64,000 bases of DNA, taken from assembly GCF_001542625.1 (NCBI RefSeq), contig NZ_CP016279.1, positions 1,488,001 to 1,552,000 on the forward strand. Direction: 5' to 3'. Source of the stretch: Streptomyces griseochromogenes (GTDB lineage Bacteria; Actinomycetota; Actinomycetes; Streptomycetales; Streptomycetaceae). Below the pieces are notes generated by a model that ran no database searches, was not told the origin of the DNA, and worked only from the letters and a program-made list of their open reading frames with translations. Both the position numbers and the translations under genes were made by a program. Numbering within the stretch: position 1 is the first letter of the stretch; each line of letters begins with the position of its first letter. This document shows positions 5,691 through 8,781 of this stretch, in pieces.

Positions 5691-6581
5691 ATGACCCCTC
5701 TGATGACGGAGGGCCTGCGGGTCGACTACACCGACCACGACGACCCCGTACTGATCAGGCCCGACGGCACTCCGGTGGACACCTGGCGGGAGAACTACCC
5801 GTACGGGCAGCGGATGGAGCGCAAGGAGTACGAGTGGCACAAGCGGCTCCAGCAGATCGAACTGCTGAAGCTGCAGGGCTGGATCAAGGAGACCGGCCGC
5901 CGGCTCGTCATCGTCTTCGAGGGACGGGACGCGGCGGGCAAGGGCGGCACCATCAAGCGGTTCACCGAGCATCTGAACCCGCGCGGCGCGCGCGTGGTGG
6001 CGCTGGAGAAGCCGACCGAACGCGAGCGCGGGCAGTGGTACTTCCAGCGGTACGTCGAACACCTGCCGACCGCCGGCGAGATCGTGCTCTTCGACCGCTC
6101 CTGGTACAACCGGGCCGGTGTGGAGCGGGTGATGGGTTTCTGCACGGACGACGAGTACCGCCGGTTCACCCGCCAGGCTCCGCTCTTCGAACGAATGCTG
6201 GTCGACGACGGAGTGGACCTGGTCAAGTTCTGGTTCTCGGTGTCCCAGGGCGAGCAGCGCACCCGCTTCACGATCCGTCAGGTCGACCCGGTACGGCAGT
6301 GGAAGCTCAGCCCGATGGACCTGGCCTCGCTGGACCGCTGGGACGACTACACCGCGGCGAAGGTCGCCATGTTCCGTGAGACGGACACCGACCACGCCCC
6401 CTGGACGGTGGTCAAGAGCAACGACAAGAAGCGGGCCCGGGTCGAGGCGATGCGCAGTGTGCTGGCGCGCTTCGCGTACGCCGACAAGGACGACGAGGTG
6501 GTCGGCACGCCCGACCCCCGCATCGTCGGCGCGGCGGCGGGCCTGCTGGAGGCCGGCGAGGACGACCGGGACGGGACGTAG
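5691..6581 (+). CDS. ppk2: Polyphosphate kinase 2 family protein
   Basis: The 296-residue protein is a PPK2-family phosphotransferase that moves phosphate between polyphosphate and nucleoside di- or monophosphates. It has the PPK2 Walker A loop GRDAAGKGG at about residues 77-85, Walker B and lid residues in VLFDRSWYNRAGVERVMGF near residue 135, and the conserved KFWFSVSQGEQRTRF region. The start ATG gives MTPLMTEGLRVDY; a second ATG four codons later is possible. Last gene of the phosphate operon. Length and the single domain point to the class that converts ADP and polyphosphate, but the subclass is not proven. Confidence 0.9.
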   Translation: MTPLMTEGLRVDYTDHDDPVLIRPDGTPVDTWRENYPYGQRMERKEYEWHKRLQQIELLKLQGWIKETGRRLVIVFEGRDAAGKGGTIKRFTEHLNPRGARVVALEKPTERERGQWYFQRYVEHLPTAGEIVLFDRSWYNRAGVERVMGFCTDDEYRRFTRQAPLFERMLVDDGVDLVKFWFSVSQGEQRTRFTIRQVDPVRQWKLSPMDLASLDRWDDYTAAKVAMFRETDTDHAPWTVVKSNDKKRARVEAMRSVLARFAYADKDDEVVGTPDPRIVGAAAGLLEAGEDDRDGT

Positions 6582-6898
6582 CGGCGGGCACCCTCGGGAT
6601 GAGCCGGCGCCCCGCGGTGACGGCTGCCGCGGGTCGCCGGCGCTTCCGCGTCGAAGTGCGCGGCCACTCCACGTGCGGTGAGTGAGCAGGCCGTTCCAGA
6701 GGCACTGAGCTCGGTGTTGTGCACCATGCCCGCGACCTTGAGGCAGTCGATGAGGGTGACCAGGCCATCACCGCCGGGGGGGATGCCAGAAAGGCTTGCG
6801 TGTCGCCGTTGGACTCCCCTGGAATGCTTGGTCGTGTCTCTCAACTCCGGTGGGGCATGAGGGGCTTCGCCGATGCTCGTAGACTCATGACGTGGCAT
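6582..6898 (-). other. Gap of about 300 bases with an unassigned minus-strand frame
   Basis: No clear gene lies between ppk2 and the methyltransferase leader. On the minus strand an open frame starts at 6898 and continues past 6582 into ppk2. Its middle part (GDGLVTLIDCLKVAGMVH, then NTELSASGTACSLTARGV) has protein-like composition but matches nothing I recognise. It may be a truncated gene fragment. GC content is slightly lower than in the flanks. Confidence 0.3.
6880..6885 (+). promoter_or_regulatory. Possible -10 element for the methyltransferase leader
   Basis: TAGACT fits the Streptomyces -10 pattern. Transcription from about 6892 would place the 9-codon leader ORF (6901) almost at the 5' end. 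No convincing -35 hexamer is visible. Confidence 0.35.
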
Positions 6899-6900
6899 TC

Positions 6901-6930
6901 ATGAGCACCCCGCACTGCTGCTTCCTGTGA
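6901..6930 (+). CDS. Putative leader peptide upstream of the rRNA methyltransferase
   Basis: A 10-codon frame encodes MSTPHCCFL and stops 13 bases before a strong hairpin. Tiny ORFs ahead of hairpins are the hallmark of ribosome-mediated attenuation, which controls many resistance methylases and ABC-F genes. The ORF has no good ribosome-binding site, consistent with near-leaderless translation from a start at about 6892. Two adjacent Cys codons could alternatively sense cysteine supply. Position and architecture are seen; function is inferred. A 5-codon ORF (6887-6904) overlaps its start. Confidence 0.4.
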   Translation: MSTPHCCFL

Positions 6931-6943
6931 TCGGAAGGCGTTG

Positions 6944-6969
6944 AGGGCGATGCCAGACGGCATCGCCCT
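6944..6969 (+). terminator. Hairpin, candidate attenuator
   Basis: A perfect 11-base-pair stem, AGGGCGATGCC (6944-6954) with GGCATCGCCCT (6959-6969), closes a 4-base loop. It has no T-run after it, which is common for actinomycete terminators. It stands 13 bases after the leader ORF stop and 81 bases before the methyltransferase start. Confidence 0.65.
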
Positions 6970-6975
6970 CCTTGG

Positions 6976-7017
6976 CGTGCCTGCTGCGTGAACGCTCTGA
7001 GCGCGCGTGCAGGCACG
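6976..7017 (+). promoter_or_regulatory. Second leader hairpin
   Basis: CGTGCCTGC (6976-6984) can pair with GCAGGCACG (7009-7017), with further short pairings inside. It lies between the first hairpin and the ribosome-binding site (CCAGGAG, about 7038-7044) and may be an alternative or anti-terminator structure. Pairing is seen; a switching role is speculation. Confidence 0.4.
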
Positions 7018-7050
7018 GTCTCTTCCCTTCATCCTTGCCAGGAGTGCCTC

Positions 7051-7902
7051 GTGCCCGTGTCGCTTCCCCCTGCCCTCGAACTGTCCCTCGACCTGCTGCG
7101 CTGCCCAACGTGCCGCACGCGTCACCTGCACCCCGACCACGGCGCACTGCGCTGCCCGGTGGGCCACACCTTCGACATCGCCCGCCACGGCTACGCCGGC
7201 CTGCTGACAGGCACCCGCGCCACCAGCGGTGACGATGCGGCCATGGTCCAGGCCCGGGACCGATTCCTGTCCACCGGCACTTACGCGCCCATCCGCCAAG
7301 TCGGGGCCGGCCTGGCGGCCGGCGCCGTGTCTGAGCAGGCCACGGTCGTGGACGTGGGGTGCGGCACCGGCTACTACCTGGCCGGCGTACTCGACCAGCT
7401 GCTCGGCGGCCGTGGTCTGGGTCTGGACACATCGGTGCGCGCGCTACGCTCGGCAGCCCGTGCGCACGACCGAGCCGCCGCGGTGGCCTGGGACGTCTTC
7501 CGTTCCTTCCCGCTGGCCGACGGGGTGGCCGATGTCGTGCTGAACGTGTTCGCCCCGCGCAACCCGGCCGAGTTCCACCGGGTGCTGCGCCCGACCGGCC
7601 GGTTGATCGTGATCCGTCCCACCGGGCGGCACCTGGCCGAGCTGCGCGGCCGGTTGCCTGCGACGGTCACGATCGACCCGGCCAAGGAACAGCGCCTGCA
7701 CCGGACGCTGGGCCCCTTCTTCGAGGCCGCCGTCACCGAACAGGTGGAGTACCCCGCGACCCTGACCAGGCTGGATGCCCTGGACCTGGTGGCGATGACG
7801 CCGAGCGCACGCCACGTGAGCCGTGCAGACCTGAACGATGACGGCCTCCTGCCCGATCAGGTCACCGTCTCCGTGCTGGCCACCGCCTACCAGCCTCGGT
7901 GA
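7051..7902 (+). CDS. 23S rRNA (guanine-N1) methyltransferase, RlmA/TlrB type
   Basis: This 283-residue protein matches the RlmA family, which methylates N1 of G745 (RlmA-I) or G748 (RlmA-II, TlrB) in helix 35 of 23S rRNA. TlrB-type enzymes confer tylosin-class macrolide resistance. The N-terminal zinc site is intact (C18, C21, C35, H39, with FDIARHGYAGLL after it). The SAM motif VVDVGCGTGYYL is at about residues 98-109. I chose the GTG at 7051 because CCAGGAG lies 6 bases upstream and homology starts there. It stands alone between two decayed stretches, behind a leader ORF and hairpins, so it could be inducible resistance acquired by transfer. Type I or II is not resolved. Confidence 0.85.
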   Translation: MPVSLPPALELSLDLLRCPTCRTRHLHPDHGALRCPVGHTFDIARHGYAGLLTGTRATSGDDAAMVQARDRFLSTGTYAPIRQVGAGLAAGAVSEQATVVDVGCGTGYYLAGVLDQLLGGRGLGLDTSVRALRSAARAHDRAAAVAWDVFRSFPLADGVADVVLNVFAPRNPAEFHRVLRPTGRLIVIRPTGRHLAELRGRLPATVTIDPAKEQRLHRTLGPFFEAAVTEQVEYPATLTRLDALDLVAMTPSARHVSRADLNDDGLLPDQVTVSVLATAYQPR

Positions 7903-8213: not shown

Positions 8214-8378
8214 CTCGGCCACGCGTCCGCCGTCATCACGCCGCGGATCTACGCCCATCTGTGGCCGGGGGAAGAAGACCGCACCCGGACCGTCATGGAC
8301 GCCGTGCTCGGCGGCCTGCGGACCGGGTGCGGACAGGTAGACACTGCAACGAAAGAAATCGCAGGTCAGAGGGCGTAA
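8214..8378 (+). pseudogene. C-terminal fragment of a tyrosine-recombinase (integrase)
   Basis: The frame encodes LGHASAVITPRIYAHLWPGE and then EDRTRTVMDAVLGG, the typical final segment of actinomycete phage/ICE integrases: the LGH box and the catalytic Tyr in the YAHLWP context, then the DRTR...DAVL tail. The whole N-terminal part with the first catalytic Arg is missing, so it cannot be active. It marks an old integrative element between the rRNA methyltransferase and sodN. No attachment site or tRNA gene is visible next to it. Confidence 0.7.
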
Positions 8379-8385
8379 AAGGAGA

Positions 8386-8781
8386 TCACGCCTTCTTGGT
8401 CTCCCAGAAGATGCGGTCGATCTCGGCGATGAGCTCCAGCGCCGCCTCGCCCGTCTTCGGGTCGGTCGACGCCTTGGCGGCCGACAGGGCCTTCAGGGTG
8501 TCGTTGACCAGCTGGTGCAGCTGCGGGTACTTCTCGAAGTGCGGGGGCTTGAAGTAGTCGCTCCAGAGCACGGAGACGTGGTGCTTGGCCAGCTCCGCGC
8601 GCTGCTCCTTGATGACGGTGGCACGCGCCTGGAAGTGCGGGTCGTCGTTGGCGGCCATCTTTTCCTGAACGGCCTTCACCGACTCCGCCTCGATGCGGGC
8701 CTGGGCCGGGTCGTACACGCCACAGGGCAGGTCGCAGTGGGCGCTGACCTTGACCTTGGGGGCAAACAGGCGGGAAAGCAT
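8386..8781 (-). CDS. sodN: Nickel superoxide dismutase
   Basis: A 131-residue precursor of Ni-containing superoxide dismutase, which converts superoxide to oxygen and hydrogen peroxide in the cytoplasm. The N-terminal leader (MLSRLFAPKVKVSA) is removed by SodX to expose His1 of the nickel hook HCDLPCGVYDPAQ, with both Cys ligands present. The rest is the four-helix bundle of the family. Length is standard. It is divergent from sodX. In S. coelicolor sodN is induced by nickel through Nur and an sodF-derived antisense RNA; whether that applies here cannot be read from this window. Confidence 0.97.
   Translation of the reverse strand: MLSRLFAPKVKVSAHCDLPCGVYDPAQARIEAESVKAVQEKMAANDDPHFQARATVIKEQRAELAKHHVSVLWSDYFKPPHFEKYPQLHQLVNDTLKALSAAKASTDPKTGEAALELIAEIDRIFWETKKA

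Follow-up and report, generated by a model that had tools for sequence, protein, structure and literature searches.

A conserved leader ORF and two conserved stems upstream of an RlmA/TlrB-type rRNA methyltransferase gene in Streptomyces: a candidate translation attenuator

Introduction

How might an rRNA methyltransferase gene in a Streptomyces chromosome be controlled by the short stretch of DNA that precedes it? We address this question for a 23S rRNA methyltransferase gene of the RlmA/TlrB type (hereafter MT) in Streptomyces griseochromogenes. The window, that is, the whole stretch of DNA analysed, comprises 64,000 nucleotides (G000:C1:1488001-1552000) of a 10.76 Mb genome, and positions are numbered within it unless another locus is named. 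A first-pass annotation had placed a leader peptide and an attenuator-like hairpin ahead of MT, and had read them as an attenuator that responds either to a macrolide or to cysteine.

Several known systems offer models for such control. In ermC-type attenuators, a ribosome stalled by a drug within a leader ORF releases a ribosome-binding site (RBS) that is otherwise sequestered; ermC itself relies on a switch between two separate hairpins, and its leader ORF carries its own Shine-Dalgarno (SD) sequence. Passages of PMC6851288 describe tlrB (yxjB), the RlmA(II) gene of Bacillus subtilis, as tylosin-inducible by way of a leader peptide that carries an RYR motif, in a leader that contains an SD-sequestering hairpin, a NusA-dependent T-tract terminator and a NusG pause. 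For Streptomyces, passages of PMC12421871 present the ABCF leaders are5sc and tiaA, whose upstream ORFs (uORFs) encode MLV, MRS and MVGDDDISG. These are explained there by start-codon stalling in response to a lincosamide, streptogramin A or pleuromutilin, within a terminator/antiterminator model, and lmrC is mentioned as a further ABCF resistance leader (PMC12421871).

The methyltransferase gene and its surroundings

Close matches to MT come from Streptomyces. The encoded protein scores above the cut-offs for Methyltransf_11/25 (SAM methyltransferase domain) and for the RlmA zinc ribbon PF21302 (33.6 bits, cut-off 27), and it matches the RlmA structure 1p91 (1.1e-29). Its best NCBIfam matches are the G748 enzymes MyrA (187 bits), TlrB/Erm(32) (178 bits) and ChrB (178 bits). 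The RlmA/TlrB-type assignment made in the first-pass annotation is borne out by these Pfam, PDB and NCBIfam matches. The three NCBIfam scores nonetheless lie far under the curated cut-offs of 625, 550 and 620 bits, respectively, and judged by its sequence the protein is a relative, rather than a member, of these named resistance enzymes. Its target in 23S rRNA is probably G748.

The features of the locus are collected in Table 1. Just 3′ of MT, positions 8238-8330 (+), read by eye, encode TPRIYAHLWPGEEDRTRTVMDAVLGGL, which resembles the C-terminal end of tyrosine recombinases of the phage type. An integrase remnant in this place, if it is one, would suggest mobility of the locus.

Table 1. Features of the MT locus, with window positions and the basis of each assignment
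Feature	Positions	Strand	Basis
Polyphosphate kinase 2 gene, 5′ neighbour of MT	5691-6578		
-10-like hexamer TAGACT, 6 nt ahead of uORF start	6880-6885	+	TANNNT in 110 of 118 motif-bearing upstreams
uORF, GTG start at 6892, peptide MAFMSTPHCCFL, stop TGA at 6928-6930	6892-6930	+	conserved start, PH and FL; in-frame length changes
MSTPHCCFL ORF, last 9 codons of uORF	6901-6930	+	sequence
Stem I, 12 bp, loop AGAC	6943-6970 (6943-6954/6959-6970)	+	compensatory changes
Stem II, 9 bp, inner hairpin of variable size	6976-7017 (6976-6984/7009-7017)	+	compensatory changes
RBS-sequestering helix, predicted 5′ arm (uORF + 8 nt)	6892-6938	+	folds of window leader and 88-sequence consensus
RBS-sequestering helix, predicted 3′ arm (pre-SD stretch, SD, start codon, first MT codons)	7021-7063	+	pairs with 6892-6938
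Helix near MT start, predicted	6892-6898 with 7057-7063		
Start-codon helix, predicted	6900-6905 with 7048-7053		
SD helix, predicted	6912-6916 with 7043-7047; 6918-6920 with 7039-7041		
uORF-end and post-stop helices, predicted	6927-6930 with 7029-7032; 6933-6938 with 7021-7026		
AGGAG, SD of MT	7040-7044	+	sequence and alignment
MT, RlmA/TlrB-type 23S rRNA methyltransferase gene, 283 aa, GTG start at 7051	7051-7902	+	Pfam, NCBIfam and PDB matches
Nickel superoxide dismutase gene, 3′ neighbour of MT	8386-8781	-	

Distribution of the leader and its link to MT

DNA of positions 6850-7100 was matched in 13 of 100 genomes: its own, 11 of the 60 other genomes of the genus, and one of another family, where the match spans 42 nt and was taken as chance. 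With E limited to 1e-40, 92 of 392 same-genus genomes contain homologues of MT; a scan of genome contigs, from which the best 80 of 197 MT relatives were kept, partly overlaps these 392. The first-pass annotation had suggested comparing the leader ORF and stem across related genomes, and both proved to be conserved. The uORF motif is present in 118 of 151 distinct MT upstream regions (117 after L166, a false match of the motif beside a tRNA gene, was removed by hand), and the stems covary, as described below. Grouped by identity to MT, the leader is found in 106 of the 115 upstreams at 63% or more, in 11 of 19 at 49-58%, and in none of 17 below 49%. The genes nearest to the enzymes of known producers, namely L170 and L177 (381-387 bits to TlrB/ChrB) and L172 (573 bits to ChrB), have no such leader. 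Within a phylum-wide sample, an E limit of 1e-45 gave MT homologues in 18 of 296 genomes, and the uORF was absent from all 17 loci examined there in addition to the window; one of these loci belongs to the same genus, and one has just 32 nt of upstream sequence.

A covariance model of the uORF plus stem I (R1, 43 sequences) was run on the 392 genomes and gave 60 full-length matches at E up to 1.1e-11; weaker matches, which were either incomplete or echoes of stem I on the reverse strand, were left uncounted. An MT coding region adjoins 56 of the 60, although some of these genes are partial, broken or at a contig end. The other four were inspected by eye: three keep short MT remnants, and in one none was recognised. 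Among these strong matches in the 392 genomes, no other gene was seen under the leader, and the comparison shows the leader to be linked exclusively to MT.

A number of individual loci deserve record. In L241, L230 and L231 the leader is left behind, with MT deleted or reduced to remnants. At L235 (~601-693) there is a leader of the IPH type defined below, read by eye as MALACNALPHCFL, with MT absent from the 1.8 kb listed downstream. A record named Pseudonocardiaceae bacterium (L122, 2325-2520) holds an MT at 72% identity with an MWTPHHQGY leader, possibly reflecting transfer outside Streptomyces or a misplaced genome. In three genomes, tRNA-Ala (GGC) sits just 5′ of a more distant MT homologue of 47-48% identity (L163 1168-1241, -; L164 412-485, +; L166 322-395, +), a position typical of integration or of expression by read-through. 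Two MT loci each are present in Streptomyces fuscichromogenes and Streptomyces sp. NEAU-Y11 (L057 and L069; L109 and L119). The locus also occurs in S. coelicoflavus and S. antibioticus (L067 and L100).

A short uORF with a putative leaderless start

Both the -10-like hexamer and the 9-residue ORF that the first-pass annotation had marked are present, and it is the start of the ORF that has to be moved. The conserved ORF begins three codons earlier, at a GTG, and the ATG chosen before is its codon 4, which is not conserved: in 16 of the 82 aligned 12-codon uORFs this codon is ACG, CTG, ATC or ACA. The first codon of the same 82 is GTG in 72 and ATG in 10.

The spacing of the promoter element points to the same start. 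Among the 118 motif-bearing upstreams, TANNNT stands 6 nt ahead of the start in 110 and 7 nt ahead in 3, with a background of 0.0022 per position. A spacing of 15 nt, seen in 68 cases, arises when the distance of this hexamer is counted to the ATG at codon 4. A consensus -35 was looked for ahead of TAGACT and not found. The uORF is most likely translated leaderless, with its start codon as the first base of the transcript, because 6 nt is the distance expected between a -10 element and the first transcribed base.

Changes in length respect the reading frame. In A2, an alignment of 96 of the 111 leaders selected for analysis, all of them are in frame (-3 nt in five rows, +9 in one), and the stop is TGA in 102 and TAA in 9 of the 111. 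In L030 and L072 the start codon or the -10 is altered, yet MT matches at full length. The selected peptides form three groups: MAF (88), MWT (13, for example MWTQHTQAL and MRTPHDQAL) and the distant IPH group (10), whose peptides have 11 or 13 residues. In the MWT group the start lies three codons further in, and the -10 is shifted along by 9 nt.

Selection of the 111 demanded the 6-nt spacing and certain peptide endings, and counts of peptide endings are therefore biased. The 41 loci skipped include truncated loci and homologues, at identities up to about 53%, in which no leader was clear. Also skipped were L072, L063, L137, L148 and L030, whose peptide is MAF or related but whose -10, spacing or start is altered; L123, where an apparent GTG uORF lacks TANNNT; and the broken copies L144 and L095. 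Two short ORFs that lie 7 nt after TANNNT and upstream of an MT homologue, MAFSSCPQVSG in L155 and MARDGNAPAFL in L159, are possible diverged members of the same leader.

Two covarying stems and the question of a terminator

The segment 6890-7060 folds more stably than 200 of 200 dinucleotide shuffles (z -4.13). The hairpins described in the first-pass annotation are there, with small corrections. The first is perfect as claimed, but has 12 bp rather than 11 and follows the uORF stop after 12 nt (6931-6942) rather than 13; the 9-bp second hairpin and the GTG start of MT with its good RBS stand unchanged. Across the 96 sequences of A2, 97.3% of cells in stems I and II are paired, compared with 33-58% for slid versions, and 7 pairs and 15 cells are changed on both sides, a level reached by 0 of 500 shuffles. 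Comparison thus shows a conserved uORF and two conserved stems. A2 leaves out the 10 IPH leaders, which are too diverged, and five MAF leaders (L075, L093, L117, L129 and L139) with rearranged leaders, a partial gene or unusual lengths; these five are included in the 88-sequence MAF analyses. A further pairing, between the 3′ strand of stem II (GCAGGCAC) and GTGCCT beside the MT start, is possible in most sequences and was not adopted; at two of its pairs, 7 and 10 of 96 rows have uncompensated A-C mismatches.

Could these stems act on transcription? The first-pass annotation had supposed that a stalled ribosome relieves a terminator, and this part of its reading fails: 6781-7100 contains 0 terminator-like sites, and stem I is followed by CTTGG, with no T run. 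Transcription attenuation might still operate if stem I were an I-shaped terminator without a T tract and the position of the ribosome on the uORF selected the fold. Stem I is very stable, and its distance from the uORF stop is constant at 12 nt in 96 of 101 MAF plus MWT leaders, which would suit such a role. Precedents exist in the genus, since passages of PMC8914203 report structured 3′ ends without a T motif in S. griseus, called likely I-shaped terminators, and the Streptomyces ABCF leaders described in passages of PMC12421871 use terminators. The consensus folds, however, show no conserved antiterminator, and a ribosome at the uORF stop would not reach stem I. Together with the lack of terminator-like sites, this makes transcription attenuation an unlikely account of the leader.

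Predicted pairing between the uORF and the MT ribosome-binding site

The consensus fold of the 88 MAF leaders joins the uORF to the RBS region of MT in a long imperfect helix, with most pairs at P >0.9. Pairing of the SD and start with the uORF arm has a mean P of 0.79 in 103 of the 111 leaders, the 8 without a recognised SD being left out. By group it is 0.83 in MAF, 0.51 in MWT and 0.81 in IPH (10 leaders, with corrected MT starts and differing sequences).

The specificity of the arm was assessed by permutation and by swapping, using 20 of the 88 MAF leaders and with the MT start misplaced in several IPH leaders. The native uORF hybridises better than codon-permuted versions in 19 of 20 MAF, 9 of 10 IPH and 6 of 13 MWT leaders. 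Hybrid gain with the leader's own arm is -10.6 kcal/mol in MAF, against -8.5 and -9.1 with foreign arms, and -12.6 kcal/mol in IPH, against -7.9 and -6.8. MWT leaders show no preference (own -7.8 kcal/mol; MAF arm -7.0; IPH arm -9.5). The preference for the own arm is thus modest, and in MWT it is absent.

In the 88 MAF leaders, the start-codon and SD helices are 94-95% paired, with covariation not beyond that of shuffles. The post-stop helix does covary (20 cells changed on both sides vs 10.9; 0 of 500 shuffles). We regard the pairing of uORF and RBS as a well-supported prediction rather than proof, because coding and RBS constraints alone could keep these sequences constant.

Where a ribosome on the uORF would open the site

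A first occupancy model placed the stop codon in the A site. With the ribosome there, mean RBS accessibility in MAF leaders moves from 0.14 to 0.16, rising in 47 of 87. This model was replaced by a scan over all P-site positions, in which the ribosome footprint was masked codon by codon in 23 of the 88 MAF leaders. Opening the RBS costs 15.9 kcal/mol in the free MAF leader, about 10.9 with a ribosome at the uORF start codon, 8.6-9.6 with codons 3-9 in the P site (8.6-9.3 for codons 4-9), and 13.4 with the last codon there. In IPH leaders the cost is 12.1 kcal/mol when free; a ribosome whose P site holds the residue ahead of Pro lowers it to 7.7, and one with Pro there to 8.7. MWT leaders give their best release at the end of the uORF. 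The plateau of release is broad, and therefore no single codon is picked out in the MAF group.

Such a profile would also suit a uORF that is translated constitutively in a structured 5′ UTR, serving basal expression, stability or coupling, with no sensing of a drug. RBS pairing and the stems would account for the conservation without any stall, and occupancy at most codons lowers the opening cost. What this explanation leaves aside is the peptide: the core [T/I/V]PHx(x)[F/A]L, followed directly by the stop, is common to the MAF and IPH groups despite their differing RNA. The target gene class is, moreover, drug-inducible in B. subtilis, according to passages of PMC6851288. We consider a purely constitutive role improbable.

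The peptide core and a candidate drug-held ribosome

Pro is present in 101 of the 111 peptides and PH in 99, and Pro is missing from 8 of the 13 MWT peptides. The RXR arrest motif (R/K-X-R/K) occurs in 0 of the 111. The cysteine sensing entertained in the first-pass annotation, which would work through starvation for codons of cysteine (or of another amino acid) and could appeal to Cys at codon 10 in all 82 and at codon 9 in 64 of the 82 aligned 12-codon uORFs, is highly improbable, given that 14 of 111 peptides lack Cys, including all 13 MWT, that 4 of 10 IPH peptides have R, F or V directly ahead of FL, and that the gene has no link to sulfur metabolism.

According to the occupancy scan, a ribosome held at the conserved [T/I/V]-Pro-His would be positioned to free the RBS and spare stem I. 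Passages of PMC6238534 identify XP(X), with Pro in the P site, as an erythromycin-dependent arrest motif by inverse toeprinting, and those of a review (PMC13410324) likewise give X-Pro-X as an erythromycin arrest motif. With Pro7 of the uORF in the P site, the nascent chain would be 7 residues long. From the release position and the XP(X) motif we infer an inducer and a stall, and we therefore propose translation attenuation by a drug-held ribosome. By analogy with these arrest motifs, macrolide induction of MT through the conserved X-Pro-X is possible.

Proposed mechanism

The proposed attenuator builds on a predicted leaderless start, a predicted RBS pairing and a modelled release position. 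The transcript would begin at the first base of the 12-codon uORF. When free of ribosomes, the uORF would pair with the SD and start of MT, forming a long imperfect helix over the two apical stems, and in this closed state MT would be little translated. A drug in the exit tunnel would hold a ribosome within the uORF, the most plausible inducer being a macrolide that acts at [T/I/V]-Pro-(His) when Pro7 occupies the P site. The held ribosome would cover the sequestering strand but not stem I, opening the RBS so that MT is made. The enzyme would then methylate 23S rRNA, presumably at the site proposed above, and ribosomes methylated in this way may stall less, closing a feedback loop.

Overall, we think it rather likely that the leader is a drug-responsive translation attenuator in which the strand that sequesters the RBS is the uORF itself, leaderless and encoding a peptide without RXR. 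Leader-peptide control of an rRNA methylase is what endures of the attenuation reading in the first-pass annotation, once its start codon, terminator and cysteine are given up. The MWT group is the weak point of the attenuator reading, as these 13 of 111 leaders fit it poorly. More tentatively, we speculate that [T/I/V]PHx(x)FL is an undescribed arrest peptide, translated leaderless, that senses a macrolide-like compound, with the uORF serving as both sensor and antisense lock on the RBS. On this more specific proposal, the promoter of the MWT group shifted by 9 nt in a way that kept the leaderless start, while its peptide became shorter and altered in sequence, perhaps to respond to a different drug.

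Comparison with known leaders and significance

In the window, Rfam 15 gives no match above gathering score (best sub-threshold match 23.2 bits vs 80 required). No report of such a leader was found in searches of the open-licence PMC literature, and it was not found in the passages of a candidate RNA motif survey that includes Streptomyces (PMC11109978). It differs from ermC in that the RBS is predicted to pair with the uORF itself. Set beside the passages on tlrB in PMC6851288, it shares an RlmA(II)-type methyltransferase, a short leader peptide and a predicted hairpin that holds the SD and start, and the leaders have similar dimensions (177 nt in tlrB, 159 nt here). By analogy, it would work like the tlrB leader of B. 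subtilis. It is nevertheless not of the tlrB type, because neither an RXR motif, which tlrB has as RYR at the C terminus of its peptide, nor a T-tract terminator was found. The tlrB leader ORF is led by an SD, whereas the uORF here has none because it is probably leaderless; and where tlrB has its terminator and NusG pause, this leader has two covarying apical stems. The ABCF leaders, as described in passages of PMC12421871, resemble it in belonging to Streptomyces resistance genes and in their short regulatory uORFs, and differ in gene class.

If our proposal is true, many Streptomyces have in their chromosomes a switch by which compounds that target the ribosome are sensed and rRNA is methylated in response. 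The design would be an economical one, with the opening codons of the transcript doing double duty as sensor and lock. Comparison within the family of leaders would then allow tests of Pro-dependent macrolide arrest on actinobacterial ribosomes and of the control of leaderless translation. It would also carry the Bacillus tlrB paradigm into the phylum that makes the drugs.
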